Part shown: piece after piece, positions 6,601 through 32,047 of the stretch | How positions within the stretch are numbered: position 1 is the first letter of the stretch | Layout of the letters: every line of letters starts with the position of its first letter | Assembly: GCF_001625355.1 (NCBI RefSeq) | Contig: NZ_JSEE01000007.1 | Location: 1 to 64,000, forward strand | DNA: 64,000 bases | Source of the DNA: Marinomonas sp. TW1 | GTDB lineage: Bacteria; Pseudomonadota; Gammaproteobacteria; Pseudomonadales; Marinomonadaceae | Direction of reading: 5' to 3' | Translations under genes and position numbers: made by a program | Notes under the pieces: model-generated | The model's database searches: none | What the model was told of the DNA's origin: nothing | The model's input: the letters and a program-made list of their open reading frames with translations, nothing else

Positions 6601-6616
6601 TAAAAGGTTTGTTTTC

Positions 6617-10450: not shown

Positions 10451-10501
10451 TAGTCTTGGGCAGAAGATTACTTATCCAAATTGATTATTAAGAGAGACGT
10501 A

Positions 10502-14868: not shown

Positions 14869-15165
14869 ACATGGGGGTTCCATCCTGAAATAGAGTCAAA
14901 GCCATTAGATTTTTCACTATCGAATGTTAAATCTTTAGCACTCGGTAAAAGTGAGCTAAATCTACTAGATTGGATAATATGCTTTGAGTATCTTGCTGAA
15001 AGGCCATTTTTTAAAGGCAATCACTCAAATGAATACGCACATTGAAATTCCCTGATAGTCGACTAACCTTAGGCATTGTGTTTTAAAGAGTGGCTGTTTC
15101 AATTGACTCTCTTATAGGGTTATAACACTGTGTTGTACCGCTAATAATTCAGATACTGCGATCGT
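14869..15165. other. Spacer with no supported gene
   Basis: The 297 bases between the terminator and the Sel1/ankyrin gene hold no gene I can support. The frame running through to 15045 starts in the terminator and has no ribosome binding site or recognisable domain. Confidence 0.6.
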
Positions 15166-16806: not shown

Positions 16807-16864
16807 TGCGGCTGTCTTTTTTGATTAACTCTTAATATTCAACAAAAGCGTCATTCATAAGCCT

Positions 16865-16965
16865 AGAAACAACAAAGCCCTAGCTAAAGAATAGCTAGGG
16901 CTTCATCTAAATGGTACCAGTAGGCGGACTCGAACCGCCACGCCTTTCGGCAACGGATTTTGAAT
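16865..16965 (-). repeat. attL: duplicated tRNA-Leu 3' end
   Basis: This 101-bp copy is identical to 30253-30353. On the minus strand it holds the tRNA-Leu part from the anticodon loop to CCA (16965 down to 16912), then the tRNA's terminator hairpin. Identity stops within the anticodon arm (GAATTCC here against GAATCCG in the intact gene), so it is a tRNA fragment, not a working gene. Confidence 0.95.
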
Positions 16966-17390
16966 TCCTCTAACCAGATGAGATTTAGTCATATCTACAA
17001 AGATAGATTACTGCATTGATTACCTGTGTAAAGGTAACTTATCCAATCTTAAAGCCCACATGATACGCACATTAAAGTTTGTCCTTGAATGGGCAGCAGT
17101 CTTAGAGGGGGAGCTTATATAGTACCCGCCTAGGAAAGCTACGATTAAGTTTTTTTGAAGACTGTTTAATTTTTTTTTCCTCGGAAGAACCGTATATTCA
17201 TACCCCCTCACTCTTTTTTTATCGGTTAACCTCTTTAAGCTAGAAAATTTTTATAGGTTTAAAAAGAATAAACTTCCGGTCATTTTTGGCAATAACTGGC
17301 TGTTTAAGTTGGTTTTTGGGCTTTACATTGATTTTTTATTGAAATATCATCATTAATGTTCCGGTCAAAATAGAAGTGAGGTGTTTGAAA
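16966..17390. other. Left-end spacer of the element
   Basis: The 425 bases between attL and the first cargo gene contain no supported gene; a 63-codon minus-strand frame lacks a ribosome binding site and domain features. The 9-base word TTCCGGTCA occurs twice, at 17274-17282 and 17359-17367, the second just before the ribosome binding site of the restriction gene, and may be a regulatory site. The segment may also hold recombinase arm sites. Confidence 0.5.
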
Positions 17391-18482
17391 ATGATTCAAT
17401 TAACAGCAAGTTATTTAGCAAATGTGCTTGATGCATTAGACAAAAATGCAATTTATACCTATCCAAATGCCAAAACACGTACAGAAATTAGAATTATTGA
17501 TGTTCGAATGCCAGAAGGGCCAGTTACTATAAAGCGTAGAAACCCTAGTAAAGGTGAGTCTTTTGATGATGCGGTCTCTCAAACTATTTCATCAAAAATG
17601 CTATGGAGATTAGCCAGCGCAATTAAAGAAAATCACCCTGTAAATATTGATCGTATTTTCGGTGCAAGTTATAACACTCGGTCGGCTTTGGAGTCCCTTT
17701 TATTGCATACAGAGTGTTTTTATTTATGCTATCCAGGGCGACTTGAGAAGGTAGGGCCAAACACAGAAGTAAAGGCCGGGCATAAACATATACTTTTTGA
17801 TCCAGCGAATCCTCACGATAAAGGAAAAATAATTCTTAAAGAAGTCAATGATATGGTAGTCACTGAGATTGATCGAGAGGTGCGTTTTGATTCGTTATTG
17901 TTAAACTCGAGGCCTAGTAAAAAAGTAGACATAGAGCTCAATCGTCGACATGCTCAAATTCAAGTTCTTTTAATAAAAGCGGCAGCATCTATGGGGTTAA
18001 TTACATGGGTTGCAAGCAATGACCACAGTATACAATATAACGGTCAAAAGTTGATTGAGATGGATGAAGTCGTAAAAAGTATGGAAACTATACCAGCCTT
18101 ATTGGGGTACCCGAAAGCTCCCGAAGCTGGGAGGCTTATAGATTGCATTTGGTTTACTAAAGATGGAAAGAAAATACCTGCAATTTTAGAAATTGAGCAT
18201 AGTACGGGGGTTACGTCGGGTCTTACTAGAATGAAGAATTTCATGCTTGAAGCTCCTGATTTACGAGACATGACATATATAATTGTGGCGCCAGATGAAA
18301 TACGAGAGCAAGTATTTAAAAAAGCTGCTCAGCCTCAATTTGATGAAATGAATGTTAAATACCTTTCATATTCAGCTGTTGAAGATTTATACCTTTTATC
18401 ACAGAGGAAAATACAAGGGATTGATAATATTAAGTTTTTTCATACATTTCTGGAGAGTATTGTCTCTTCTGATTTAATTTAA
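17391..18482 (+). CDS. Candidate type II restriction endonuclease
   Basis: I do not recognise a named family for this 363-residue protein. The functional call rests on two points. First, residues 249-272 contain L-I-D-C-I-W, then A-I-L-E-I-E-H-S-T-G, that is Asp251 about 16 residues before Glu267 and Glu269, which fits a PD-(D/E)xK-type nuclease core with an ExE variant. Second, it lies beside, and converges on, a C5-cytosine methyltransferase. The N-terminal 200 residues look like a mixed alpha/beta DNA-binding region. GTGAGGTG lies just upstream of ATG 17391; the earlier GTG at 17376 overlaps that site and is less likely. Cleavage specificity cannot be read from the sequence. Confidence 0.6.
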   Translation: MIQLTASYLANVLDALDKNAIYTYPNAKTRTEIRIIDVRMPEGPVTIKRRNPSKGESFDDAVSQTISSKMLWRLASAIKENHPVNIDRIFGASYNTRSALESLLLHTECFYLCYPGRLEKVGPNTEVKAGHKHILFDPANPHDKGKIILKEVNDMVVTEIDREVRFDSLLLNSRPSKKVDIELNRRHAQIQVLLIKAAASMGLITWVASNDHSIQYNGQKLIEMDEVVKSMETIPALLGYPKAPEAGRLIDCIWFTKDGKKIPAILEIEHSTGVTSGLTRMKNFMLEAPDLRDMTYIIVAPDEIREQVFKKAAQPQFDEMNVKYLSYSAVEDLYLLSQRKIQGIDNIKFFHTFLESIVSSDLI

Positions 18483-18510
18483 AGTTCAATTACTATAAAG
18501 GAGAGTTGAT

Positions 18511-18885
18511 ATGAGTTTTGATTCAGATGTTGCACTACTGTTATTTAACTACCAAGGACTAACGCTTAAAAGTATTTCTGGAACAGCTAATATAACTATA
18601 AACAATATAAATTTAGAAGAAGAAATTATTACTATCTCTTGCTCTGATGGAAAAATTTTTAACGAGTCATTTAAGAGGATGCGGATCGTGTATAACGCTT
18701 TACTAGAAAACCGCTGCACGCATGTGGAAGCTGCATTGCAGAATAGTGGCTCTAGACGTAATGTTCCTGAAACGTTACTAGCAAATTTACCATTTATTGA
18801 GTATGGCTATATTAATAATAGAAAACACTTGTTTTTATCTGAAAATAACACACACCATTTGGGAACTTTAAAAAAGAAAGGTTGA
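18511..18885 (+). CDS. Hypothetical protein beside the restriction gene
   Basis: The 124-residue product is not recognised. It has an N-terminal half rich in beta-type segments (DVALLLFNYQGLTLKSIS, TANITINNINLEEEIITISC) and a helical, polar C-terminal half. The gene is 28 bases after the endonuclease candidate, with the strong site AAAGGAGAG before ATG, so the two form an operon. Position suggests an accessory subunit or control protein for the restriction-modification unit, but no helix-turn-helix is obvious. Confidence 0.7.
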   Translation: MSFDSDVALLLFNYQGLTLKSISGTANITINNINLEEEIITISCSDGKIFNESFKRMRIVYNALLENRCTHVEAALQNSGSRRNVPETLLANLPFIEYGYINNRKHLFLSENNTHHLGTLKKKG

Positions 18886-18954
18886 TGATAAGGACCACTT
18901 TAATTGGCCTATATATTGATAGTCCTTATTATGGGTGTCAAACTTAAGGTGATG

Positions 18955-20088
18955 TTACCGTTTTTTTAGTAGAATGAGAAAGTCATCGATAGTTTTGGCC
19001 ACGCCAAGGCCAGCTAAATAAGGTACTCCATTGCCAATAGTCTTAAACATATTACTCAGTGTCATAGTAGGGGGAAGTACAAAATCAGCAGGAAGGGATT
19101 GTATAGCTAATGCTTCTGAAACGCTTAAGCGCCTTGCTTGATAAGGATGCAGGTGAACTTCATTGTTTCCATATGCTGCTGTTGGAGAATATCTCCAGCG
19201 ATGAAGTCTTTTAAATGACTTTTTACTGGTATCTCCTTCTTCTACTTGAGTAAAACGAGCTGATTTGGGCCTAAAATAGTGAGATGCATTGATATGTTTA
19301 TGCACTTTATTTTTTTTGAACCAATGTTCAATGGTAAGCTCTGCTTTAACACCTTTTGGTTTAGGTTTTATACTATCTACTACAAAAGGTTCTTTTTCTG
19401 GCCAGTCGTTATTAGAAAGCGACTCTTCGCGTGTGAATTTAGTTCGTTTGTTCCAGTTGAAAAAATCTTCATCAATTAACATCGATTTGAGAGACTTTTC
19501 ATTTAATATATTTATTACATGATGCTTCTTGATTCCAAAAAGTAAAATTCTGTCTCTATCTTGTGGTGCGCCATATTGAATGCAGTTGATAAGGTTCTCT
19601 GTTAAAATATAGCCTTCATTCTGGAGTTTATTTTTCATTTCTTCATAAAATTTTCGATGCCTAACCGTTCGCCATAAACCTTTTACGTTTTCAAACAGGA
19701 AAAAATCAGGTTTATGTTGTATAACACAATCTACATATGTTTCGGTAAGTCGGCCATTATCACCTTCATGACCCTTATTTTTCCCTCCGATAGAAAAGTC
19801 CGGGCAAGGGGGGCCTCCAATAAAACCAACGAGTTCTCCATTATTTTGGGACGTACGGACATTATTTTTTAGTTCTGGTGCTAGTTTGCCATTTCCAACA
19901 AAATCTTCAATACTATTTAAGTAGTATCCATACTCAGGCTCCTTAAGTTTAAGGTGCTTACGAGAATACTTATAGGCTTCTAAAAACGGCTCGTGAAATT
20001 CATTAACCATTGCTATCTTGAAACCTGAGTGCTCGAACCCAAGATCTAGAAAGCCTGAACCAGAAAAGAAAGAAAAAATTGTAGCCAT
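18955..20088 (-). CDS. DNA (cytosine-5-)-methyltransferase
   Basis: The enzyme transfers a methyl group from SAM to C5 of cytosine. The 377 residues hold the ordered motifs: I, FSFFSGSGFLDLGFE (5-19); IV, GGPPCPDFS with catalytic Cys95; VI, LFENVKG (131-137); VIII, APQDRDRILLFG (174-185); X, FKTIGNGVPYLAG near the C terminus. Residues about 195-330 form the variable target-recognition region. The frame extends 47 codons upstream to 20229, but that part is unlike the family and motif I normally lies near the N terminus, so ATG 20088 is preferred despite a weak ribosome binding site. It converges on the putative endonuclease and should protect the host from it. Confidence 0.9.
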   Translation of the reverse strand: MATIFSFFSGSGFLDLGFEHSGFKIAMVNEFHEPFLEAYKYSRKHLKLKEPEYGYYLNSIEDFVGNGKLAPELKNNVRTSQNNGELVGFIGGPPCPDFSIGGKNKGHEGDNGRLTETYVDCVIQHKPDFFLFENVKGLWRTVRHRKFYEEMKNKLQNEGYILTENLINCIQYGAPQDRDRILLFGIKKHHVINILNEKSLKSMLIDEDFFNWNKRTKFTREESLSNNDWPEKEPFVVDSIKPKPKGVKAELTIEHWFKKNKVHKHINASHYFRPKSARFTQVEEGDTSKKSFKRLHRWRYSPTAAYGNNEVHLHPYQARRLSVSEALAIQSLPADFVLPPTMTLSNMFKTIGNGVPYLAGLGVAKTIDDFLILLKKR

Positions 20089-20265
20089 GAGTAAACCGTG
20101 TAGTGGAGGAGACCAAGAATAAAGGAAAACGATTTTAAACCGTCTCGAAGAAGAAGACAAAGAAAAGTGACATAATTTTAATTGCCCATGATTGACCTTG
20201 GTCGAAGGCTCTACCCTTAGATAGTACAAATCATTTTATTTGCTTATTTAGTCGGTTTTCAGGGC

Positions 20266-20591
20266 TGGACTTCCCAGAGTTTGCTAAACAGTAGGAACTT
20301 TTAAAAACACTTTTCTTCGAACTTGGCAGGTGACATTTTACCTGTATGCGAATGTCGTTTTATCAGGTTGTAGAATATATCAATATCCATACTTTTTTGA
20401 TCCAAGCGTATAAGCTATAGAGGGTTGTATCGAGTCGTTGAGCCACTTCAGCAACAGAATAACTATGCCCTGTTACTTGTCTAACCGCTTCTCTTTTAAA
20501 TTCTTCTGAGTAACATTTTGACTTCATTAAATACCTTTTATTTAACTAGTTTTTAACGCTAATAGGCGCCTAGTAAAGTCTGGGAAATCTA
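20266..20591 (-). mobile_element. Internally deleted IS3-family element
   Basis: The 326-bp segment is framed by 21-bp terminal inverted repeats at 20266-20286 and 20571-20591 that match at 17 of 21 positions and share the core TTCCCAGA. Inside, on the minus strand, are the start of an OrfA-type transposase and the last codons of an OrfB-type transposase, with the middle missing. No clear target duplication flanks it. It lies between the methyltransferase and polymerase genes. Confidence 0.8.
20301..20527 (-). pseudogene. IS3-family transposase remnant (orfA start fused to orfB end)
   Basis: From the ATG at 20527 the minus strand encodes MKSKCYSEEFKREAVRQV followed by SVAEVAQRL and LYSLYAWIKK, the N-terminal helix-turn-helix of an IS3-family OrfA. 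The frame is lost after about 55 codons. A second frame then gives DIDIFYNLIKRHSHTGKMSP and AKFEEKCF before a stop at 20301, matching the C-terminal end of the OrfB DDE transposase. About 900 bases of normal coding sequence are missing between them, so it cannot move by itself. Confidence 0.85.
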
Positions 20592-20683
20592 GTTCTAGGC
20601 AAGTTGATGAAGAGGGTGTACAAGAGTGATGGTACTTGCGAATCTATTTTTATAACGCCATTCCATGGCGTTCGAATGAGTTT

Positions 20684-23260
20684 TCAACTACTAAACAAGG
20701 TATCCAGATTAGCATTAGGAAAACGTTCTAAAAGCATCTTGAGGCAGCGTATGCTCTTATCAGTTCTAGGTACTGCACCTTCAATCAACTTTGATCGTTT
20801 AGCACTTCTGACTTGCTCTGGTGAAATGGCATATCCCTCACCATTAAGCCACTTGGCCATTTCTTTGGAATTCATTACAGAGCTATCCAAGCCCAGCAGC
20901 GATCTTGTATAGAAGCGTAAAAATAAGCGTATGAGTAAACCGTCAGAGCTTTCTTCTGATTGAATTTTCACCGCTTTATCTTTTCGTGCTTTTTGCATAG
21001 CAAGATAGTCCATGAAGTCTTCGACATCTTTCTCTTCCTTAAGACACCTATTTGACCTAAAGCCAGTAAAAGATGCTCGGGCAAACTCGATATCTTGAAC
21101 CGTTTTAAAGGGCTTGGTAGTTGCCCCAATATGTTCCCAATTATCGGCTGAGTAGGTACTTACTTGATCGATATCTCGTTTAAAGTCGAACTCCAAGTTA
21201 AGACGCTGAGTTTTCTTTTCCATAATCATGTCACTTCTGCCCAGATACATTGATCGAGTAGATCTTAAATGAGAAGCATCAATGGTGTCGCTAGAGGTTC
21301 TATTACGATAAAAGTCAATCATGTATTGGTTATGATCTAAGCATGATTGAGGTGGACGTACACCAGCCTTAGCAAGCACCTCTTTTTGGCCTTCCATTGG
21401 TTTTACAGTCACTTGTCCTCTAGTTTTCATGCAAATAAGCTGTCGTGCGCCATGTTTTTGCTCAAGCAAAACATTCTTACTTTCAGGAGGACAAATGCGG
21501 CTATATAAATCATTAAAACGATTACATATAGAGCCATTTAAAGGTATATCCGCTAAAGGTGCATTGGTTAAGAATCCATCCGTTGTCACCGATATCACCT
21601 CATACTCTCGGGGTATAGCGTGAAGTATCTCAGATAGCATTGCCCTTGCTAATCCTGTCACGTAAGTAGCAAAAAATGGATTGGTTAACGCCGTGTAAGG
21701 CAACTGGTTACTAAGGCCACTTTCTATATCAAACCCATTTTTACCTCTTAACCCCTGAGCAAGTTTGCCATAAAGTGAATTCCCTAATTCTTTCCAAAGA
21801 AGTTCGTCAAAACTGCCTTTATCAAATGAATTCCGCTTGTCTCTGACTTTAGATACATACGATTCAAAAATTCGGTCATCATTCTTCCAAGGAAACACCA
21901 TCCCTTCTTTCACTTTGATTGTGGCATTCTGAGCTATAGCCACTTCTAGTTCATGTCCTGTGCAAAAGCTTTCACCTGACAAAGGGTAAACAAGACCAGA
22001 ATCTATTCGTACAGGCAGGCTAGGATAAAGAGTTCCTTCAGGAAAGCTGAACTCAACTAAGGCTAAAGAACATTGATCACCTATAAGTCCTTCAGCGTCT
22101 TTGATTTGGTATGAAGAGTCGTAGTCAATTTCTCTAAGACCTATCATTGCAGCGGTGTAACAGCTAGGAATATCAAAATCATTAAAATCTTGCTCAGGGG
22201 TCAAGCCAAGCCAAAAAGCTTCATTTCTACCGCCATGAAAAGTGGATATCGCAAGCTGTTCCTGCAATAAACGCATTGTTTCAGGCATCCGGCGATGCAG
22301 GGTGTGCATTTGCTGCTTTTCAGTATTCCATCTTTCATAGCGTTTAACCTGATATCCGAATACAGAATCTAAATCAAAAGATTCAGGGGTATTGGTCTTG
22401 AAAAGACTAACAGCCATCGACCCGACCGTTACAGGTAGTTTTTTAAGACCATTCAAACTACAGAATTCAATGACACGCTTTATATACATGCGTGCAATGA
22501 CGGCATCTCTTATTGCGTATTCCTTAAAACCTTCAATATCTTTTTCTTGATATTCCTTCATCCTTTCAATACTAAAAGGTGGGGGGATGTCTAATTTTGG
22601 CAAATCAATCAATTCACCCACTTCACTTAACGACTTTCCTGCTGGAGTGAGTAACATCGTGTCGTAACACTTAATGTATATATATTTGGTATTACGAGAT
22701 TTTGTCCGAACCTTCAATGGCTCTTTGTCTACCCGCTGAGCCTTGATAGACTCCACATCAATGCCATACGCGGAATCGAGAGAAACGACTGTTTTTCGTA
22801 TGCCAGATAGATGAGCAGCCACCCCATCAAAAGCCTTATCGAAATTAAAAATATCAGCTTTCAAAAAATGAGCGACTATAAATAAATGGCTAGGGTACGT
22901 TGTTAGTACCTCAGACTCTATAGCGTGCTCTATGCATTTGATAACAAATCTTTCAAAGGTTAAACGATCTTTTCGCATAGACGATCCGACCGGAATATAG
23001 CCATCACATGATCGGCTTCCATGTGAAATTGAAAAGGTATAACAGAGAACATCATTGCAACTTTCAGCCTCATTAAATTGATACTCAGTGTCAAACGCTA
23101 GAATGATTGTTTCTTGTAGCTCGGGCCAAGGTGTAACTTTAAACTTCTCTTTGACAACCTTATCGTGAATAACCTTAGTTTTAGAGGGCTTTTTATGCTT
23201 AGGGATATTACTATTTAAATTCGCATCTTCATTTAAAATCGCATCATATTTTTCATACAT
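20684..23260 (-). CDS. Family B DNA polymerase, primer-independent (piPolB) type
   Basis: The 858-residue protein has a proofreading domain and a polymerase domain. Exo I is AFDTEY (Asp57, Glu59), Exo II has Asp136 in AHFLKADIF, Exo III is YAIRD (Tyr248, Asp252). Polymerase motif A is DIPSCYTAAM (Asp363), motif B is KELGNSLYG (Lys490, Asn494, Tyr497), motif C is VTTDGFL (Asp561), and a KTRG thumb-type motif is at 612-615. A single Asp in a TDG motif C, the length near 860 residues, the lack of a terminal protein gene, and the tRNA-linked element with tyrosine recombinases all fit piPolB of pipolins, which can start DNA synthesis without a primer. ATG 23260 is chosen over TTG 23266. No Shine-Dalgarno sequence is visible; a hairpin lies just upstream. 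Confidence 0.85.
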   Translation of the reverse strand: MYEKYDAILNEDANLNSNIPKHKKPSKTKVIHDKVVKEKFKVTPWPELQETIILAFDTEYQFNEAESCNDVLCYTFSISHGSRSCDGYIPVGSSMRKDRLTFERFVIKCIEHAIESEVLTTYPSHLFIVAHFLKADIFNFDKAFDGVAAHLSGIRKTVVSLDSAYGIDVESIKAQRVDKEPLKVRTKSRNTKYIYIKCYDTMLLTPAGKSLSEVGELIDLPKLDIPPPFSIERMKEYQEKDIEGFKEYAIRDAVIARMYIKRVIEFCSLNGLKKLPVTVGSMAVSLFKTNTPESFDLDSVFGYQVKRYERWNTEKQQMHTLHRRMPETMRLLQEQLAISTFHGGRNEAFWLGLTPEQDFNDFDIPSCYTAAMIGLREIDYDSSYQIKDAEGLIGDQCSLALVEFSFPEGTLYPSLPVRIDSGLVYPLSGESFCTGHELEVAIAQNATIKVKEGMVFPWKNDDRIFESYVSKVRDKRNSFDKGSFDELLWKELGNSLYGKLAQGLRGKNGFDIESGLSNQLPYTALTNPFFATYVTGLARAMLSEILHAIPREYEVISVTTDGFLTNAPLADIPLNGSICNRFNDLYSRICPPESKNVLLEQKHGARQLICMKTRGQVTVKPMEGQKEVLAKAGVRPPQSCLDHNQYMIDFYRNRTSSDTIDASHLRSTRSMYLGRSDMIMEKKTQRLNLEFDFKRDIDQVSTYSADNWEHIGATTKPFKTVQDIEFARASFTGFRSNRCLKEEKDVEDFMDYLAMQKARKDKAVKIQSEESSDGLLIRLFLRFYTRSLLGLDSSVMNSKEMAKWLNGEGYAISPEQVRSAKRSKLIEGAVPRTDKSIRCLKMLLERFPNANLDTLFSS

Positions 23261-23263
23261 ATA

Positions 23264-23291
23264 CAAAATAAAAGAGAGGTTTCCCTCTCTT
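23264..23291 (-). terminator. Terminator-like hairpin before the polymerase gene
   Basis: On the minus strand AAGAGAGG and CCTCTCTT form an 8-bp stem with a GAAA tetraloop, followed by TTATTTT. It lies after the stop of the gene at 23312-23848 and ends only a few bases before the polymerase start codon. It could end transcription of the upstream gene, or act as an attenuator that keeps polymerase expression low. Confidence 0.7.
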
Positions 23292-23311
23292 ACCTCACGA
23301 TAAATTAATGA

Positions 23312-23848
23312 TTAGTCTATAAGGAAATCATTCCAGTTAACTGTTTTCTTCTTGTTGGTTACTACTTCAGATACTTCATTTTTCAGATTGTCAATATTGT
23401 TATAGTCATAGCTGGACATAGAAAATAATGTCCTTGAATTAAGACCAATAATAACTATTACACGCTCATCTTCCATCTCTATAATACGAATGTTTAGAAT
23501 GGATTCTTTATGAATAAACCCACCATTCTCTAAGGTTATAAAATCCTTGTTGTTGGTCGAATAATGTCCAAGGCTCGATTTAATTTCATCAAAGATGTCA
23601 TTTGCGTATTTGCTTTTTTCATAAAATACCATCCCACAATTCTTATCAAATGCTTTGGTGTTACCATCAACATTGATTAAATTTATAATTTCAGAAACCT
23701 TCGTTATCTGTTGGGTTCCTTCTACAAAACCATTTGATATACGTGAGATTTTAACTTTAACATCAGTGTCCTGAAGCATTTTGGTTTCAGCGTTAGCGTT
23801 AGCGTTAGTGTTAGCGTTAGTGTTAGTGATGTCTGTATTTGTGTTCAT
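23312..23848 (-). CDS. Hypothetical protein with Asn-Thr/Ala dipeptide repeat
   Basis: The 178-residue product has no family I recognise. Residues 1-21 are a low-complexity Asn-Thr/Asn-Ala run coded by a tandem hexamer repeat. The rest (about 28-178) looks like a compact alpha/beta domain with strands such as ERVIVIIGLNSRTLF and ends in NKKKTVNWNDFLID. There is no signal peptide or membrane helix. GGAAATG-type spacing with AAAGGAAAT upstream gives a good start. It lies between the excisionase-like gene and the polymerase on the same strand, so a role in element replication or its control is possible, for example as a single-strand binding or accessory protein; this is inference from position only. 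Confidence 0.7.
   Translation of the reverse strand: MNTNTDITNTNANTNANANAETKMLQDTDVKVKISRISNGFVEGTQQITKVSEIINLINVDGNTKAFDKNCGMVFYEKSKYANDIFDEIKSSLGHYSTNNKDFITLENGGFIHKESILNIRIIEMEDERVIVIIGLNSRTLFSMSSYDYNNIDNLKNEVSEVVTNKKKTVNWNDFLID
23791..23826 (-). repeat. Tandem hexanucleotide repeat, six copies
   Basis: Six units of (C/T)GTTAG on the plus strand encode the Asn-Thr/Asn-Ala run at the N terminus of the 178-residue protein. As the unit is six bases, slippage would change length by two residues without shifting the frame. Confidence 0.9.
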
Positions 23849-23933
23849 ATTTCATTTCCTTTAAAAGATTGATTTAAGTTCATTGTTTATTAGGGTGAAG
23901 TTTTACTGATCTTCAACAGTGTTAATTAAGTCT

Positions 23934-24113
23934 TTAATTCATATTCTTCTCCTCCCACTGATGTATGTCCGTTATCCGAAATCGGATGAAGTTTCCAACC
24001 TTTAGATATGGTGGCCAGCTTTCAGGCTGACGTTTCAATCCTGATCGTACTGAGTTCACCTTCAGGTCGTAGCGATCACAAAAAGCTGATAACGAAAGAA
24101 AAAGAGGCGACAT
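23934..24113 (-). CDS. AlpA/excisionase-like DNA-binding protein
   Basis: This 59-codon gene lies 10 bases after the integrase gene on the same strand. Its ribosome binding site AAGGAG overlaps the integrase stop codon, so translation is probably coupled. The product has LSAFCDRYDLKVNSVRSGLK (8-27), an N-terminal winged-helix-like segment, then ESWPPYLKVGNFIRFRITDI and HQWEE, the pattern 'P.y.kvG..vRfr..di..W' of AlpA and Xis recombination directionality factors. It probably bends att DNA and favours excision by the neighbouring tyrosine recombinase, and may also regulate transcription. Confidence 0.8.
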   Translation of the reverse strand: MSPLFLSLSAFCDRYDLKVNSVRSGLKRQPESWPPYLKVGNFIRFRITDIHQWEEKNMN

Positions 24114-24123
24114 TGTTTTCTCC

Positions 24124-25272
24124 TTAGTTCATATAATTAAATGTAGAATCGAGTTGTTTTACGGAATTGCTAATGTGTTCATTAGACAAATGGGTGTAGC
24201 GCTCAGTAACAGAGCTGCTGCTGTGGCCTAGAGCTATTTGAGTTGCTCTTAGAGAACCTGTAGTTTCAATTAAATTAGTGGCAAACGTATGGCGTAAGCT
24301 ATGTAGAGAAAGCTGCCCTTTTAAGACACCCTCCTTGGATAGCTGCGTACATACCCATTGGAGGGCATTGCGAGGGTAGGTTAGATGGCCTTTACTGCTA
24401 GGAGAATAAAAGACAAATTCGTTCATCTTTAACGTTTCTAAGTGAACTAGAACACGTTTCGCTGTTTCATTAATGTGGACACGACGAGCTTTTCCTGACT
24501 TTGTCATAGGTAAATCTACATAGGATTTATCCTCTGATAAATAAGTCCATTTCATGGTCAAAGCCTCCATTGATCTCATGCCTGTAAACAGCAAGAACAA
24601 AAGAGCACTACCAGAGTATGGATTGGAATATGAGCTGGAGAAGTAGGTGAATCGATGGAGTTCATTACCTCGCAACACTCGTGTTTGCGTATTAGATAAC
24701 ACTTCCTTTTTGATTTTCTCTACAGGGTTCCTGTCAATCAATTCCATTTCAACCGCAAGGCTAAAGACAGCCTGCAATGCGTATCTATATTTATTTAACG
24801 TACTAGCTGATACCTCTCGAAGACGAAGTCTATTAATGACTTGGATACAATCAAACTTACTAATGTCTGAAAGCAATTTACCAGAGATATACTCAAGCTC
24901 GGTTGAAAGGATTCTTAAGCGTGATAGCATCCCTTTATGATCACGGTGATTGGTTTCACTATGGGGTATATAATAAGTATTGATAAACCTATTAAGAGTT
25001 AAAGGTGCAGGAGCTTCACCTCTAAGGTATGAAACCTCTGATCTTAGACGTGATAATCTTTGATTTAATACTGTTAAGTCTTCAGATATATCACCAATTT
25101 TCTTAACTATACGAGTGGATTTCACGTCAGCTCTAAAAATTAATGATACTGAATGTTTGTTTTTTCTAGCATGTACGTTGGTTCCCATATGTCTCTCGGA
25201 ACCATAGGGTAGTAATGTCATTTTTTGTTTTATTATCTCTACATTTTTAGGTGTAAATTGGAGGGAAGTCAT
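24124..25272 (-). CDS. Tyrosine recombinase/integrase 1
   Basis: The 382-residue enzyme has a SAM-like core-binding domain (about 90-185) and a catalytic domain with all expected residues: Arg233 in TGMRSMEAL, Lys258 in MTKSG, His324 and Arg327 in HSLRHTF, His350 in LGHSSSS, and the nucleophile Tyr359 in ERYTHL. The N-terminal 85 residues look like an arm-binding region. AAGGAT precedes the ATG. With the excisionase-like gene after it and the tRNA repeat flanking the element, it is a good candidate for the enzyme that integrates and excises the element. It is not closely similar to the second recombinase at 26545. Confidence 0.93.
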   Translation of the reverse strand: MTSLQFTPKNVEIIKQKMTLLPYGSERHMGTNVHARKNKHSVSLIFRADVKSTRIVKKIGDISEDLTVLNQRLSRLRSEVSYLRGEAPAPLTLNRFINTYYIPHSETNHRDHKGMLSRLRILSTELEYISGKLLSDISKFDCIQVINRLRLREVSASTLNKYRYALQAVFSLAVEMELIDRNPVEKIKKEVLSNTQTRVLRGNELHRFTYFSSSYSNPYSGSALLFLLFTGMRSMEALTMKWTYLSEDKSYVDLPMTKSGKARRVHINETAKRVLVHLETLKMNEFVFYSPSSKGHLTYPRNALQWVCTQLSKEGVLKGQLSLHSLRHTFATNLIETTGSLRATQIALGHSSSSVTERYTHLSNEHISNSVKQLDSTFNYMN

Positions 25273-25563
25273 AGTTTTTTATCCTTAACTGCGTATTAGG
25301 TTTTATAGATTAGATGAGATATTGATGGATTTTAACTAGCAGGTGTCTATGGCTCGAAGTCTTGATATGAAGGCGTTCTTTGTTTTTTGAAAATCGTAAG
25401 GTGTTGTCTTTTAATGGTTTTTTATCGATTTATTTTCTCAGTGGAATTCGTTTTTTCTTCTCGATTGAGGCTCTCTTACTACGTTTCTTTGATGAAGCTT
25501 AAGGAATTGGAACCAGAGCAGCCTTCTTCTTAATGTTAACGGTCAACTTTTAGGCTTAGAGTA
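25273..25563. promoter_or_regulatory. Divergent intergenic region
   Basis: These 291 AT-rich bases separate the integrase-excisionase operon (minus strand) from the unknown gene at 25564 (plus strand) and should carry both promoters. I see no gene in it and no clear operator. Confidence 0.4.
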
Positions 25564-26340
25564 ATGTCGAATACAAATAAAAGAATAGAGCTCACTAAGC
25601 GTGATAAAAAACTAATTAATGAGCTAACAAAACATAAAGGAATTTCACGAAAAAATATCCCTAAAATAGCTCGTTTGATTTATGGTGAAAATACAGCGTT
25701 TAATAATGGCGGGTTGAAAACCCATTATAAATTGATTAAAGATTTTTGTGATTCTAAATCTAATAAAATAAGGAGTGATGAAAGACTTGCAGAAATAAAT
25801 ATAGAAAAAAGCAAAGAGTATTTCGATAGTTACTACATAGTGACCAGTGAATCACTGTCCTATGTTATAAAATCTAATAAAACTATTAGTTCAGATTATT
25901 TCTATATGAATGGTGGCAATAAAAGTTATTATGACCATTTCGTATTTTATGTTGTAAATGAAATTGGCATAGCTGATATCATGACTGTTGGTAGTTTAAT
26001 TGACAGATTGGATATAGTTGTTGATAAGAAAAATTTTAATAGCATTGAAGAGTTAAAAGGAATTCTAATTAAGATAAAAGGATTCAGTTCAGTAGGTAGG
26101 GAAAAAGAAAAACTATATAAACAGTCCTTCAATGCTGAAATAGTTTGGAAAGGTGGTGATCGTTTAAATAAAAATATACTAGGGCCATTTTGTACAATAT
26201 ATAACAATATAAAGTATGTGAGCGAATATACGCATAATGAAATGAAGAGAGTTGATAATAAAACGTATAGTAAGTGGGATAATTACTCCTCTTCAGAGGA
26301 GGTAATGAATAAGATGATTTACTTCTTAAAGGAGGATTGA
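25564..26340 (+). CDS. Hypothetical AT-rich gene between the recombinases
   Basis: The 258-residue product matches no family I know. It is lysine-, asparagine- and tyrosine-rich, with an N-terminal basic helical part (LTKRDKKLINELTKHKGISR, 10-29) that could bind nucleic acid, and a C-terminal polar tail. No signal peptide or membrane helix is present. The coding sequence is the most AT-rich in the window, with abundant AAT/AAA/ATA codons, which suggests a different or more recent origin than the rest of the element. It is transcribed divergently from the integrase 1 operon, a typical place for a regulator or element-maintenance gene. Confidence 0.65.
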   Translation: MSNTNKRIELTKRDKKLINELTKHKGISRKNIPKIARLIYGENTAFNNGGLKTHYKLIKDFCDSKSNKIRSDERLAEINIEKSKEYFDSYYIVTSESLSYVIKSNKTISSDYFYMNGGNKSYYDHFVFYVVNEIGIADIMTVGSLIDRLDIVVDKKNFNSIEELKGILIKIKGFSSVGREKEKLYKQSFNAEIVWKGGDRLNKNILGPFCTIYNNIKYVSEYTHNEMKRVDNKTYSKWDNYSSSEEVMNKMIYFLKED

Positions 26341-26544
26341 ATTTACACAAAGGCTATTAATAACTTGTCACTGTAAAGTGGTGAGTCAACTCTATACCCC
26401 TACATACTCTTATCACACCATCTTGAAAGCCTTTGTTCTAAAGGGTTTCGAAAGTTTTCTAATTACGAAAAACGAGTAGGGCCGTAACAAATGACAACCT
26501 TAAGTACATATTATTTCTTTGATGAACTGATCAAGGAGTAATCA

Positions 26545-27726
26545 ATGCTTAAGAAATTTAGATTCACAACATCCCTTCTGAAAGCACTACCTGCGAACGA
26601 CCCTCTCGCTAGGTCAACAGAGTTAGAGTTCTCAGATACTGAAGTGACAGGGCTAAAGTTGCTCAGTGGAAAATCGGGCTCTAAACGTTTCCTATTACGT
26701 TACACGATTAATGGAAAAAAGACGTCTATTTCAATCGGTAGGTTCCCAGATATAAGCTTACAAATAGCAAGGAAAATAGCGTTACAGTACAAGAGTCAAA
26801 TAGCCTTAGGAGTTGACCCTAAAGAAGCTCGATTAAAAGAGAAGTCTAAGCACAGTATTCCAACGCTAAGTCAGTTTTTTCATGAGGTGTATTTACCTTT
26901 AGCCAAAAAAAGAAAGCTTTCATGGCGAGATGACAAAGCTCGCTTCATGCTTTGTAAGAGCATCCATTTAGTCCGCTACGATGAACTAACGGCAAAACAG
27001 GTACTAGAAGTACAGTTGGATTTGAGTTCGGATACGAAAGCGCATTATTCCTATGCCCCGGCAACGTGTAATAGGGCGCTTGCTTTACTGAAAACCATGG
27101 GGAAGCTTGCTGAAAATTATCTGGGTATATCAAATGTTGCTCTTAAGGTCGCTCTGCTACCTGAGAACAATATCAGAACTCGATACTGTGATATCCATGA
27201 AACTCAGAAGATCATTAAGGCCGCTCTTAAGTACCCCTGCCGAAGCAGCGGTGCTTATATTGCTTTACTGTTCTTATCAGGTTGTCGGGCAACAGAGTTA
27301 CGTCTAAGACTATGGCAAGACATTGACTTGAAAAAAGGGATATTGCGTATTCCAAAAACGAAGAATGGCACACCTCATATCATTTATCTTTCGGATTATA
27401 TGATTGAGATAATAAAGTCGATTCCTCGATATGCTGGAAACCCTTATATCTTCGCTGGAAAGAGAGGTGTTAAACCGATTTATCAACCACGTCATGCTTT
27501 TGACGTTATTAAGACCCAAGCCAACATCAAGAATTCAGAAGAAGTAGTGTTTCATACTGCAAGACATTCTGTTGCATCAAACCTTATTTCAAACGGTGCC
27601 GATCTAAGTTCAGTTCAAAAATTGCTTAATCATAAGAGCATTGAATCGACGCTACGATACGCCAAGTTAAATGAGGCAACACAGCGTAAAACAGTTCAAA
27701 GCTTATCTTCTATGATTCAAGCATAG
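26545..27726 (+). CDS. Tyrosine recombinase/integrase 2 (P4-like, with arm-binding domain)
   Basis: The 393-residue protein begins with an AP2-like/DUF4102-type arm-binding domain (about 20-95; NGKKTSISIGRFPDISLQIA), followed by a core-binding domain (107-195) and the catalytic domain: Arg248 in GCRATEL, Lys273 in KTKNG, His337 and Arg340 in HTARHS, His363 in LNHKS, Tyr372 in LRYAKL. This P4-integrase architecture is typical of enzymes that use tRNA 3' ends as attB. AAGGAG precedes the ATG. It is 2.5 kb from the intact tRNA-Leu and is followed by a strong terminator. Confidence 0.93.
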   Translation: MLKKFRFTTSLLKALPANDPLARSTELEFSDTEVTGLKLLSGKSGSKRFLLRYTINGKKTSISIGRFPDISLQIARKIALQYKSQIALGVDPKEARLKEKSKHSIPTLSQFFHEVYLPLAKKRKLSWRDDKARFMLCKSIHLVRYDELTAKQVLEVQLDLSSDTKAHYSYAPATCNRALALLKTMGKLAENYLGISNVALKVALLPENNIRTRYCDIHETQKIIKAALKYPCRSSGAYIALLFLSGCRATELRLRLWQDIDLKKGILRIPKTKNGTPHIIYLSDYMIEIIKSIPRYAGNPYIFAGKRGVKPIYQPRHAFDVIKTQANIKNSEEVVFHTARHSVASNLISNGADLSSVQKLLNHKSIESTLRYAKLNEATQRKTVQSLSSMIQA

Positions 27727-27753
27727 AGCTTTTTCATATCAACCTATTAATAC

Positions 27754-27788
27754 AAAAGAGCCCTTACCGTTTTGGTAAGGGCTCTTTT
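27754..27788. terminator. Strong terminator after integrase 2
   Basis: AAAAGAGCCCTTACC and GGTAAGGGCTCTTTT form a 15-bp perfect stem with a short GTTTT-type loop, ending in Ts on both strands. Confidence 0.93.
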
Positions 27789-27804
27789 ACTTTCGGAGAA
27801 CGTA

Positions 27805-28173
27805 ATGGAGATCATTCATGACCTTAGACGACTAACAAGCTTACCTATCAAGGAGTCGATAAGAGTTCCTTTGTTACAGCACCTGACAGAGCCCTTTGGG
27901 TCTGTTTTCAATGCTATTGAGTGCTGGGAAGAGATAGGTTGCTTTTTAGTTTACATAGATCACTGCGATGGAGATCGAGCACTCAACGTATTTGATCAGG
28001 CACACAACTACTGTCTAACAGCAATAAAAAACCATCACGAATACGTAGTAAAAATTGGAGAGAATAATAGTCATCTATTAGTGTTAGCAATCCTTCATGA
28101 CTCTGGTTCAGGTGTTTATCTACTAGCACCAATAGACCATCCATCTAGATATTTAAAATCAATTACAATTTAA
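27805..28173 (+). CDS. Hypothetical protein, right-arm gene 1
   Basis: The 122-residue product (from ATG 27805, with GGAGAACG upstream; the frame extends 11 codons into the terminator and is not used there) is not recognised. It is a soluble alpha/beta protein with IECWEEIGCFLVYIDHCDGD and LLVLAILHDSGSGVYLLAPI. It lies 16 bases after the terminator and 19 bases before the next gene, so it heads a small operon in the right arm of the element. Confidence 0.65.
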   Translation: MEIIHDLRRLTSLPIKESIRVPLLQHLTEPFGSVFNAIECWEEIGCFLVYIDHCDGDRALNVFDQAHNYCLTAIKNHHEYVVKIGENNSHLLVLAILHDSGSGVYLLAPIDHPSRYLKSITI

Positions 28174-28192
28174 ACCAATAGGAGAAATAAAC

Positions 28193-28690
28193 ATGTCACA
28201 TAAGACTAAGAAAGCGGCTCTTGATAGTGAGACGAATGAATTAAATGTTGAAAATAATTCGCCAATTATTGCCTTTAACGATAAGTCAGAAGACAAAGTT
28301 ATGACGGTGGTTATTAATGATGGGAAAGCATTAGGTTTAAACACTAAGAAAAATCACCATATATTTTACCAACTAGCTTACGATCAAAATAATTCACCAT
28401 TCATTCGCATGACAGGTAATGAAGGAGGAGGGCTGCATACTAAAAGCTGGATTGACCTTCTTGAGGTGTTTAGTTTATTAGAAGAGCAAGAAGGAAAGGC
28501 TATTAAAAGCACTCTATTAACGCCTGTTTTTAAATCAGGCAGTGCTAATAACTGCGGCTTTTTCGCTGCCGTGTTGCGTAATCCAGATATAGGGCTGTTA
28601 AGTAGATCAGATAAAAGCGTGTTTGTTCATCGTTTGAGCGAGCAGTACGCGGAAAACAAAGAAAAACTTCTGACTCTTAATAAAAACTAG
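28193..28690 (+). CDS. Hypothetical protein, right-arm gene 2
   Basis: The 165-residue product is not recognised. AGGAGAAA precedes the ATG. The first 35 residues are polar and probably disordered. Residues 60-160 look folded, with NHHIFYQLAYDQNNSPFIRM, a glycine run (GNEGGGLHTKSWIDL) and NNCGFFAAVLRNPDIGLLS. No signal peptide or membrane helix. Its position directly after right-arm gene 1 suggests a shared transcript and function, unknown. Confidence 0.65.
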   Translation: MSHKTKKAALDSETNELNVENNSPIIAFNDKSEDKVMTVVINDGKALGLNTKKNHHIFYQLAYDQNNSPFIRMTGNEGGGLHTKSWIDLLEVFSLLEEQEGKAIKSTLLTPVFKSGSANNCGFFAAVLRNPDIGLLSRSDKSVFVHRLSEQYAENKEKLLTLNKN

Positions 28691-28757
28691 CAAGCAAGAT
28701 ACTCCCATACCCCTTCTTAGTACCACTACCTAAAGTAAAATTTACCAAGGAACTATT

Positions 28758-29189
28758 ATGAAACTCAAATTTAATCATGAGGGATTAGCTGTGCCTGTTA
28801 GTCAGGGAATGATTGATTTAATCCATCAATGTAGTGACAACCTCATCGAGGATTTTACTGCATTAGATGGCTTTACAATCAATTTCAAAGACACCAGCTA
28901 CAGTGCTAGCTCCGGTGGATATCATCCTGTTGAGATTGGCTTGTTTAAGAACGGACAAGGCATTTTCTGCCTTAGTTACATAACAGACTTTGCGTATGTC
29001 GGCATTCAATATCCAGAGCTTATAAAGGATGTGGACTTTAATTTCGACGCAGGGCAGTTGCAAGGGTATCTAATGAACTCGTGTTTAACCAATAACGATA
29101 CTCAGGAATTTTATGTGTTGTGGGAAGGTAATTTCCTTAGCTATGTAGACATGGAGTGTTTTGACGAAGTGACTGTTTATTTACTGTAG
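28758..29189 (+). CDS. DUF2787 family protein
   Basis: The 143-residue product matches the DUF2787 pattern: MKLKFNHEGLAVPVSQGM at the start, INFKDTSYSASSGGYHPVEI (about 40-59), CLSYITDFAYVGI, IKDVDFNFDAGQLQGYL and LWEGNFLSYVDM. Proteins of this family are small, of unknown function, and occur often in mobile elements of Vibrio and relatives. CAAGGAAC precedes the ATG. It belongs to the row of small right-arm genes. Confidence 0.85.
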   Translation: MKLKFNHEGLAVPVSQGMIDLIHQCSDNLIEDFTALDGFTINFKDTSYSASSGGYHPVEIGLFKNGQGIFCLSYITDFAYVGIQYPELIKDVDFNFDAGQLQGYLMNSCLTNNDTQEFYVLWEGNFLSYVDMECFDEVTVYLL

Positions 29190-29370
29190 AGGAGAAAATT
29201 GAATGGTCAGGAGGGGAGCAGGAGATTCGACTTTGTCTCTCTTCCTTTACTTCATCGAGAAGTGAAGCGCTTGAAAGCCAAAGGCTGATAAGAATATTAA
29301 TTGTGTAGAAGGTTTAATCTCAAAGAATTCTGCACCCGTTGTTAAAAAATGAAACCAAATGAGAGATAAA

Positions 29371-29565
29371 ATGAAAGATCAAGAGTGTAATGTGATTTGT
29401 GTTAACGATGAAGAGAATAGAAATGAAAAGGAGTCGAATGAGAAAATAAAGTCAGCGATTAAAGGAGCAGCTGCAGGGGCATTAATCGGATCCCGTTTTG
29501 GCCCAATTGGTATTGCTGTTGGAACAGGACTTGGAGGCGCGTTGGGATATATTGTTGATAAATAA
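29371..29565 (+). CDS. Small glycine-zipper membrane peptide
   Basis: From ATG 29371 (GAGAGAT upstream) the product has 64 residues: a charged N-terminal half (about 1-28) with two cysteines, then a segment IKGAAAGALIGSRFGPIGIA and VGTGLGGALGYIV with repeated GxxxG and GxxxA spacing. Such glycine zippers pack in membranes and are found in outer-membrane lipoprotein tails, in pore-forming bacteriocins and in small toxins. There is no lipobox, double-glycine leader or signal peptide, so export is unclear. The frame begins four codons earlier at 29359, which is less well supported. Confidence 0.7.
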   Translation: MKDQECNVICVNDEENRNEKESNEKIKSAIKGAAAGALIGSRFGPIGIAVGTGLGGALGYIVDK

Positions 29566-29663
29566 AAACTATTGGTTTTATATAGAACTGATAGGGTTTA
29601 ATTACAGACCGTAATTTATAATTATATGAAAGCCAATAATGATATAGATAAAAGGATGAGAAG

Positions 29664-29966
29664 ATGGAGCTAGATTTAAATAACCCTCAGGATTTTACTT
29701 TGGATAATGTAAAACGTCTTATTGCATCAAAAGACGATTCAGTAGACCGCCAGTTAAGAGTCACCCTAAATGGAATAGCTTATATCTCAGACAAAGTAGG
29801 TGGAGATGATGTAATGGAATTGGCATTTCGTTTAGAGACTTGGGATGCTAAAAATAGTTACTCAGGAGTGGCAGCAAGTAACGATCAAAGACATATTACA
29901 AGAATTTATAATTGCTTAAAGTTAAATTGGCCAAAGCCAAGCAGTTCTTATATTGATGTTTACTAG
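29664..29966 (+). CDS. Hypothetical protein, last gene of the element
   Basis: The 100-residue product, preceded by AAAAGGATGAG, is not recognised. It is acidic at the start (MELDLNNPQDFTLDNVKRLI) and reads as a soluble small domain; residues 45-75 (VGGDDVMELAFRLETWDAKN) look helical. No signal peptide. The spacer to attR (29967-30252) holds no gene I can support. Confidence 0.6.
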   Translation: MELDLNNPQDFTLDNVKRLIASKDDSVDRQLRVTLNGIAYISDKVGGDDVMELAFRLETWDAKNSYSGVAASNDQRHITRIYNCLKLNWPKPSSSYIDVY

Positions 29967-30252
29967 GCCGTCTATGTAATCAATATACAAAATGCATGGA
30001 CTTGTTTTTCACTCAAAAGAAAGGAGTAGGGCTGGAAAATCAGCCTAGTCCTTCATGCATATGTAGGACTAAAACTTAGCTTCGGTAGCATCTTTGAGTA
30101 GTCAAAAGATTTACAACGCCACTACCCCCACACACAGAAAAACAGGAGGGGAGCTGGAGTTTTTATAACGGTGGTTATGATTTTGGCAGATTGGCCGTCT
30201 TTAGAAGTTAGATACGAAGAGGTTTTCGACTTGATATAAAAGGGGCAATCCC

Positions 30253-30353
30253 AGAAACAACAAAGCCCTAGCTAAAGAATAGCTAGGGCTTCATCTAAAT
30301 GGTACCAGTAGGCGGACTCGAACCGCCACGCCTTTCGGCAACGGATTTTGAAT
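30253..30353 (-). repeat. attR: tRNA-Leu 3' part and terminator
   Basis: Identical over 101 bases to 16865-16965. Here the tRNA sequence continues into the 5' half, so this copy belongs to the working tRNA-Leu gene. Confidence 0.95.
30256..30290 (-). terminator. Terminator of tRNA-Leu
   Basis: On the minus strand AGCCCTAGCT and AGCTAGGGCT form a 10-bp perfect stem followed by TTGTTGTTT, just after the tRNA 3' end. The same hairpin is duplicated in attL. Confidence 0.85.
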
Positions 30354-30384
30354 CCGTCGTGTCTACCAATTCCACCACACTGGC
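30300..30384 (-). tRNA. tRNA-Leu (anticodon CAA)
   Basis: The 85-base gene reads GCCAGTG at the 5' acceptor arm and TACTGGTACCA at the 3' end (CCA encoded). The anticodon arm has loop TTCAAAA, giving anticodon CAA, and a long variable arm (GCCGAAAGGC) typical of a class II tRNA-Leu. It is the integration site of the adjacent element, whose insertion rebuilt the 3' part of the gene. Confidence 0.97.
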
Positions 30385-31811: not shown

Positions 31812-31826
31812 TCTGCGCTGTTTTGT

Positions 31827-31902
<76 letters not shown>

Positions 31903-31971
31903 TAAAACACTTCCCTTTAAGGTTTCTTATTGTTAAAAAGATATCTTCTGCAAAACGCCGTGGCGTGATGT

Positions 31972-32047
<76 letters not shown>

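Follow-up and report, generated by a model that had tools for sequence, protein, structure and literature searches.

A 64,000-nucleotide stretch of Marinomonas sp. TW1 (contig NZ_JSEE01000007.1, positions 1 to 64,000; the window) was found to carry a low-GC (guanine-cytosine) element of 13,388 bp, which is very probably an integrated pipolin of the gammaproteobacterial kind. The confidence in its identity as a pipolin is high, and that in its mobility is moderate. Pipolins are described as elements that encode a primer-independent family B DNA polymerase (piPolB) and, in the integrative type, have att-like direct repeats, often on a tRNA gene (the ExplorePipolin paper, PMC9710591). XerC-like and phage-type recombinases, one of them near an excisionase, are very often present, and restriction-modification genes are common (PMC7385651). 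The element presents this set: a polymerase nested in the piPolB tree with the motifs present, direct repeats on a tRNA gene, and both kinds of tyrosine recombinase, one next to an excisionase-like gene. The arrangement of these parts is not seen among the relatives examined.

The original prediction, made from the DNA letters, had described a pipolin-like element with a piPolB-type polymerase, two tyrosine recombinases, an excisionase-like gene, a candidate restriction-modification pair, a hexamer-repeat gene and perfect 101-bp att repeats in a tRNA-Leu gene. Each of these items was recovered in the analysis (Table 1), and the shared gene blocks described below agree with the proposed identity.

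Table 1. Features of the Marinomonas element and its ends, in their order along the window
Feature	Position	Strand	Evidence
attL, left copy of the 101-bp perfect repeat	16865..16965	.	3' part of tRNA-Leu and its terminator
Type II restriction endonuclease, 363 amino acids from ATG	17391..18482	+	PADLOC REase_II PDLC03534 1.2e-84
g124, open reading frame of 124 amino acids behind the restriction enzyme	18511..18885	+	no family below E = 0.01
C5 cytosine DNA methyltransferase, presumed partner of the restriction enzyme	18955..20229	-	Pfam PF00145 5e-47; PADLOC MTase_II 4.6e-163, DruM 1.4e-139
piPolB, family B DNA polymerase of primer-independent type, 860 amino acids	20684..23266	-	tree, relatives, motifs
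g178, 178 amino acids, directly upstream of piPolB, candidate partner	23312..23848	-	position, profile, structure model
xis, excisionase-like, 59 amino acids	23934..24113	-	tblastn to E. coli, Citrobacter and Marinobacter loci
intA, XerC-like tyrosine recombinase	24124..25272	-	Pfam PF00589 3.8e-24; NCBIfam XerD 4.8e-25, below cut-off
g258, between both recombinases	25564..26340	+	no confident family; no tblastn match in other piPolB loci
intB, phage-type integrase with arm-binding domain	26545..27726	+	Pfam PF00589 5.8e-27, PF13356 9.5e-16
g133, shared intB-block gene	27772..28173	+	phrog_32947 4.4e-10; common to other pipolins
g165, shared intB-block gene	28193..28690	+	phrog_28971 4.1e-23; common to other pipolins
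DUF2787 protein, intB block	28758..29189	+	Pfam PF10980 1.3e-32; common to other pipolins
g68, glycine-zipper small protein, cargo	29359..29565	+	Pfam Gly-zipper_YMGG 1.8e-05, below cut-off
g100, cargo	29664..29966	+	no family match
attR, right copy of the 101-bp repeat	30253..30353	.	repeat search
tRNA-Leu(CAA), intact, integration site	30300..30384	-	ARAGORN

Integration site and distribution

The GC content of the element is 0.370, compared with 0.452 for the remaining window, and the repeat that bounds it is the longest one within the window. The right copy spans the 3' 54 bases of the tRNA-Leu(CAA) gene and 47 bases past it, terminator hairpin included. Such a layout, with the repeat on the 3' end of a tRNA gene, is what tyrosine recombinases using tRNA 3' ends leave behind. 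In E. coli, the att of pipolins also lies on a tRNA-Leu gene (PMC7385651). The likeness to E. coli that had been predicted holds for the kind of tRNA, but the gene is a different one, tRNA-Leu(CAA) here and tRNA-Leu(TAA) in the E. coli and Aeromonas loci examined. Near the right flank of the element, two identical tRNA-Ala(GGC) copies lie 145 bp apart (31824-31902 and 31969-32047).

A query composed of the tRNA-Leu(CAA) gene and the right flank matched all 48 genomes of the genus, the window's own included. Loci with a flank of 1.5 kb were taken from 30 of them (29 besides the window's own). The empty tRNA-Leu(CAA) site, a proposed check on the prediction, was seen in genomes of the same genus: a thioesterase gene and an EAL/HDOD gene are both present around the tRNA in 18 of the 29 loci, the EAL/HDOD gene alone lies within the flank in seven, and neither gene in four. 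In two genomes (G005 and G028) the thioesterase terminator directly abuts the tRNA; relative to these two, the window has, besides the element, a further 2 kb to the left of attL.

These 2 kb (14870-16864) are situated between the thioesterase terminator and attL and contain a Sel1/ankyrin-repeat frame (15166-16806). The stretch may be the remnant of an earlier insertion into the same tRNA. Another genome (G010) holds a different 2.6 kb between the thioesterase gene and the tRNA; the spot is therefore variable in other species too.

The same element was sought in related genomes, as had been proposed, and this search gave no second carrier: piPolB was detected in one of the 48 genus genomes, the window's own. 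Two of 390 genomes of the order gave a match, the second one (G297) with only 27% identity over 170 residues (E = 1.5e-4). A class-wide search of 369 genomes with a polymerase alignment (E 1e-10) returned the own genome only. Since relatives turn up in many genera when genome contigs are scanned, such genome draws miss rare elements.

A 16-mer at the outer end of att, AGAAACAACAAAGCCC, also occurs beside the element of Shewanella frigidimarina (locus L021) and was considered as a recombinase signature. This candidate was rejected. The 16-mer is present in 27 of the 390 genomes of the order, compared with one for the reversed control; it lies beside tRNA-Tyr, Phe, Pro and Arg as well as away from tRNAs, and an integrase match was found near it in only one (L163) of 20 loci (L146-L165). 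Because of these varied neighbours and the single integrase, it is taken as a common terminator and not as an element end.

The polymerase and the two gene blocks

The polymerase matched Pfam DNA_pol_B_2 (1.9e-08) and displayed the motifs FDTE, NSLYGK, TTDGF and KTRG, the last of which is typical of piPolB. No relative was found when genome contigs were scanned with the window polymerase alone. With a four-row alignment, 92 stretches encoding polymerase relatives were obtained, and the best 80 were kept (the 80 piPolB loci). Among these best 80 of 92, identity to the window polymerase was 42% in Aeromonas, 40% in Marinobacter and 39% in Citrobacter and E. coli. Plasmids also hold relatives (46 records by tblastn, including Staphylococcus, Fusobacterium and Pseudosulfitobacter), with 23-27% identity among the 30 matches listed. 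None of the solved structures matched the polymerase by sequence. On one metagenome-bin contig (JAQTWB010000006.1) two piPolB loci were observed (L028 and L029), which suggests two related elements close together.

A single open matching frame of at least 700 amino acids is present in 68 of the 80 loci. The tree contained 36 of these 68 polymerases, two plasmid polymerases, the window's own and six outgroup polymerases; Shewanella L021, Salinivibrio L038 and Photobacterium L067 were omitted because they have no single full-length frame. The window polymerase was placed as sister to that of Marinobacter (Shimodaira-Hasegawa-like approximate likelihood ratio test, SH-aLRT, 94), then with Actinobacillus (98) and then with the E. 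coli/Citrobacter/Enterobacter clade (95; 10-row set). It stands apart from protein-primed and RNA-primed family B polymerases (PolBs) and does not group with those of phi29, Cp-1, Av-1 and PRD1. A placement outside piPolB, which the prediction had named as counting against it, did not occur.

Both tyrosine recombinases match Phage_integrase and show the R, H/R and Y motifs. The Xis protein is 33% identical to its E. coli and Citrobacter counterpart and 37% to that of Marinobacter (tblastn about 1e-10), and its match to Pfam HTH_17 is weak (0.04). The genes fall in two blocks. Block 1, intA-xis-g178-piPolB, is a row on one strand and likely forms an operon. Block 2 consists of intB, g133, g165 and the DUF2787 gene. 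Homologues of the blocks were found by tblastn in E. coli (L020), Citrobacter (L073), Enterobacter (L023), Aeromonas (L016) and other loci, and block 2 is complete in 11 of the 80 (L015, L016, L020, L022, L023, L024, L033, L034, L042, L058 and L073). In all 11, which are of the E. coli and Aeromonas type, piPolB and block 2 are convergent; a tRNA is in range in seven of them and is always tRNA-Leu(TAA), adjoining intB. In the window the blocks are divergent, with g258 between them and att beyond g100. A tandem order, with no match to DUF2787, was observed in Shewanella L021 and Photobacterium L067. If circularised, the window order would equal that of E. coli, with att between the far ends of the blocks and not between their heads.

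The closest intB is that of Shewanella L021 (63-68% identity), where a tRNA-Leu(CAA) lies next to the polymerase. The identity is 47-48.5% in tRNA-Leu(TAA) loci, 44% in an element at tRNA-Trp and 39% in two Aeromonas loci with tRNA-Asn. These few points suggest that intB may determine the integration site. Identity and site appear only loosely tied, as the intB of locus L186, at 47%, has tRNA-Leu(CAA) 3.7 kb upstream, provided that this is where it integrates.

Block 2 can exist alone. Of the 390 genomes of the order, 18 have a match to g165, one of them being the window's own. Among 18 regions around matches outside the window, two carry the complete block in the window order, namely L186 (genome G396; 7690-10615) and L187 (genome G063; 5971-8690), and the remaining 16 are without a complete block. 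No match to piPolB was obtained in G396, in G063 or in any of the 18 regions. The prediction had also named, as counting against it, related strains with the genes at unrelated sites and without the repeats; no related strain with the element was found, and what these two genomes show is the intB block by itself.

Neither L186 nor L021 showed an att repeat in the stretches examined, and the tRNA-Leu(TAA) genes in loci of the E. coli and Aeromonas type showed none either, the left end of these loci perhaps lying beyond those stretches. L067 (tRNA-Trp, 77 bp) and L036 (tRNA-Asn, 48 bp) did have repeats, as did several loci from alpha- and betaproteobacteria. The Photobacterium pipolin L067, the polymerase of which is without a single full-length frame, is flanked by two identical full-length tRNA-Trp copies (52-128 and 13362-13438).

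With regard to the cargo, the restriction endonuclease gene lies near the methyltransferase gene, an arrangement that points to a type II restriction-modification system. Several plasmid relatives of the endonuclease are named type II restriction endonuclease, with about 30-34% identity over 41-55% of the query (among 10 matches listed of 168). None of the solved structures matches it by sequence; for the methylase, the best solved relative is HaeIII methylase, and that match covers just 110 residues. A Druantia-type model is matched by the methylase too, but the ten proteins scanned gave no match to any further Druantia model. When the other piPolB loci were searched by tblastn, no match was obtained for the restriction enzyme, g124, g258, g68 or g100, and the methylase had only distant ones (L036, L055 and L068).

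A small protein encoded upstream of piPolB

The g178 gene lies on the same strand as piPolB, 45 bp before its frame. The N-terminus of the protein is coded by a hexamer repeat (23792-23827), and its C-terminus forms a predicted beta domain. In loci related to that of the window, a small gene sits between xis and piPolB. A profile was built from seven upstream proteins including the window's, chosen and trimmed by eye, and it was compared with 14,826 frames of at least 50 amino acids from the piPolB loci and the window. All 21 hits at E < 1e-3 were the frame upstream of piPolB, seven of them being the seeds. An iterated profile without the window protein retrieved this frame in 24 loci below 1e-3 and no other frame. 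With the 80 loci sorted by best-matching polymerase, the family is present in 24 of 33 loci of the window's polymerase clade and in none of the 47 others; this count is used here, an earlier hand-picked gamma- and betaproteobacterial set having given 24/30. Nine clade loci are without the family, and two of these (L025 and L089) include hardly any upstream sequence. The upstream frames of L043 and L044 reach weak scores (E 0.008 and 0.02), and those of L015, L016, L034, L042 and L031 are present below the threshold. In L067, one additional small frame intervenes.

The membership of g178 itself is less clear. The profile made without the window scored it at E = 0.31 among the 14,826 frames, later rounds gave 1.6 and 2.5 and then no longer listed it, phmmer found no significant relative, and hhalign gave P = 0.011. 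In its favour, E = 0.31 over 14,826 frames corresponds to about 2e-5 for this single frame, and its tail NWNDFL fits the C-terminal motif [D/N]Wxx[L/F], which is found in 10 of the 24 family members and in 43 of the 14,826 frames overall. The AlphaFold2 model of the C-terminal domain (predicted local distance difference test, pLDDT, mostly >90) has five strands and a helix, in the order of the third domain of the E. coli protein (model mean pLDDT 64; about 71-88 in that domain). The model is not an independent test, since its alignment includes relatives. A search of PDB structures with the window and E. coli models gave no hit at E ≤ 0.001, and the weak best hits of the g178 model were PH-like domains of Spt16/Pob3 (E = 0.014). 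An OB fold for the upstream protein was considered and is not supported, no OB match having been obtained in this search. Neither Pfam (six family members) nor PHROGs (five) gave a match above cut-off or at E < 0.01. By its position, predicted fold and weak sequence similarity, g178 is regarded as a candidate member of the family.

The following joint reading is offered tentatively, with rather less than even confidence. Pipolins of the window's clade may keep a fast-evolving small protein upstream of piPolB, encoded in the same direction and acting with the polymerase, g178 being one such protein. The family would consist of one to three copies of a strands-then-helix domain, some with the [D/N]Wxx[L/F] tail. 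By analogy with the single-stranded DNA-binding (SSB)-like protein of the unrelated SCCmec polymerase, it might hold the single-stranded template or recruit the polymerase. For g178 taken singly, the confidence that it is a polymerase partner is low to moderate. A-family polymerases of mobile elements are reported to prime only with a small single-stranded DNA-binding partner, while piPolB is said to work without an SSB-like protein (PMC10061031). In the main texts of PMC9710591 and PMC7385651, supplements aside, the words 'upstream', 'operon', 'accessory' and 'single-stranded' do not occur. That a small gene recurs directly before piPolB raises the question of whether piPolB has a cellular helper.

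Origin of the element and relation to known systems

It is unlikely, but deserves consideration, that the element is a composite island, in which a piPolB element with the intA block and the restriction-modification cargo was fused to a separate intB-block integrative element and only intB now moves the whole. The two genomes of the order with the intB block and no piPolB match are in line with such a fusion, as is the orientation of the blocks, which varies from divergent to convergent or tandem among loci. However, the union of blocks is not peculiar to the window, because the 11 loci that combine piPolB with a complete intB block belong to several genera, and a third att copy was not found in the window. 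A dead pipolin, stranded after one integration by the loss of excision or replication, is improbable. Its presence in a single genome of the genus and the distance of both recombinases from the ends would agree with it, and the broken polymerase frames of L021, L038 and L067 indicate that related pipolins may decay; against this stand repeats that are perfect over 101 bp and long intact frames for piPolB, both recombinases, the restriction enzyme and the methylase.

The integrases match phage families, the polymerase has weak matches to two PHROG families of DNA polymerases (9.8e-15 and 2e-13), and the glycine zipper of g68 gives it a weak likeness to virion and tail proteins. That the element is a prophage or phage satellite whose family B polymerase is of phage type is nevertheless highly improbable, as no confident capsid, terminase or tail gene was found among the proteins scanned and the polymerase, which falls outside the protein-primed phage PolBs in the tree, had no match by tblastn in 50,697 phage records.

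Several points weigh against an integrated, mobile pipolin. Both recombinase genes are away from the att sites, and in E. coli intB adjoins the tRNA. At least one more event must have shaped the site, as the 2 kb between the thioesterase gene and attL are absent in sister genomes. Among the proteins scanned there was no match above cut-off to a relaxase or to a uracil-DNA glycosylase, the type-4 form of which is very frequent in E. coli pipolins but not defining (PMC7385651). The tree, which comes from a short search without bootstrap, contains long branches among its outgroup and plasmid sequences. Finally, neither an excised circle nor replication or transfer was observed.

For the pipolin the following cycle can be proposed. 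A tyrosine recombinase, most likely intB, would integrate a circular form by crossover in the tRNA; intB is favoured because the closest pipolin intB, that of L021, is also in a locus with tRNA-Leu(CAA). IntA and Xis would help excision, and piPolB would copy or maintain the circular form without an outside primer; g178 might be its partner, by binding DNA or as a regulator. The restriction-modification pair might protect the host and the element against other DNA and thereby favour retention.

The analysis adds a pipolin with a block order unlike that of the E. coli and Aeromonas ones. It also shows that the integrase block can occur separately from the polymerase, and that another tRNA-Leu target accompanies another integrase. 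Should the small upstream protein prove to be a genuine partner, it would offer a handle on the cellular role of piPolB, which is called still unclear in PMC9710591. The prediction had further proposed a distinct gene set and perhaps an undescribed lineage. The cargo and the block order are distinct; the lineage claim is too strong, since the polymerase falls inside the gammaproteobacterial piPolB clade, both blocks are shared, and three of the five right-arm genes (g133, g165 and the DUF2787 gene) are shared pipolin genes.

The piPolB group is said to have been defined in a study of 2017, and in a study of 2024 pipolins are reportedly characterised as bimodular defence islands that occur in several genera of the gammaproteobacteria. 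Among other systems, the CcPol-MP polymerase-SSB pairs of SCCmec-type elements resemble the present case in that a mobile-element polymerase has a small adjacent gene, but an A-family polymerase and an OB fold are described there (PMC10061031). The E. coli and Citrobacter pipolins (L020 and L073) share the intA-xis-small gene-piPolB and intB-g133-g165-DUF2787 sets and adjoin a tRNA-Leu. They differ in the tRNA-Leu(TAA) gene, the intB beside it, the convergent blocks and the cargo, so that by tRNA gene and block order the element is not of the E. coli kind. The Aeromonas pipolins (L015, L016, L034 and L042) have the closest polymerase by identity and both blocks; these are convergent, the tRNA where in range (L016 and L034) is tRNA-Leu(TAA), no xis match was obtained by tblastn, and the upstream small gene is below the family threshold. 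The Marinobacter segnicrescens pipolin (L017) has the sister polymerase, a related xis and a small upstream gene with the C-terminal W motif, but no match to the intB block in the stretch examined. The Shewanella frigidimarina pipolin (L021) differs in its tandem blocks and in a polymerase and an intB that are not single frames, and it shares with the window the closest intB and a tRNA-Leu(CAA) next to the polymerase.

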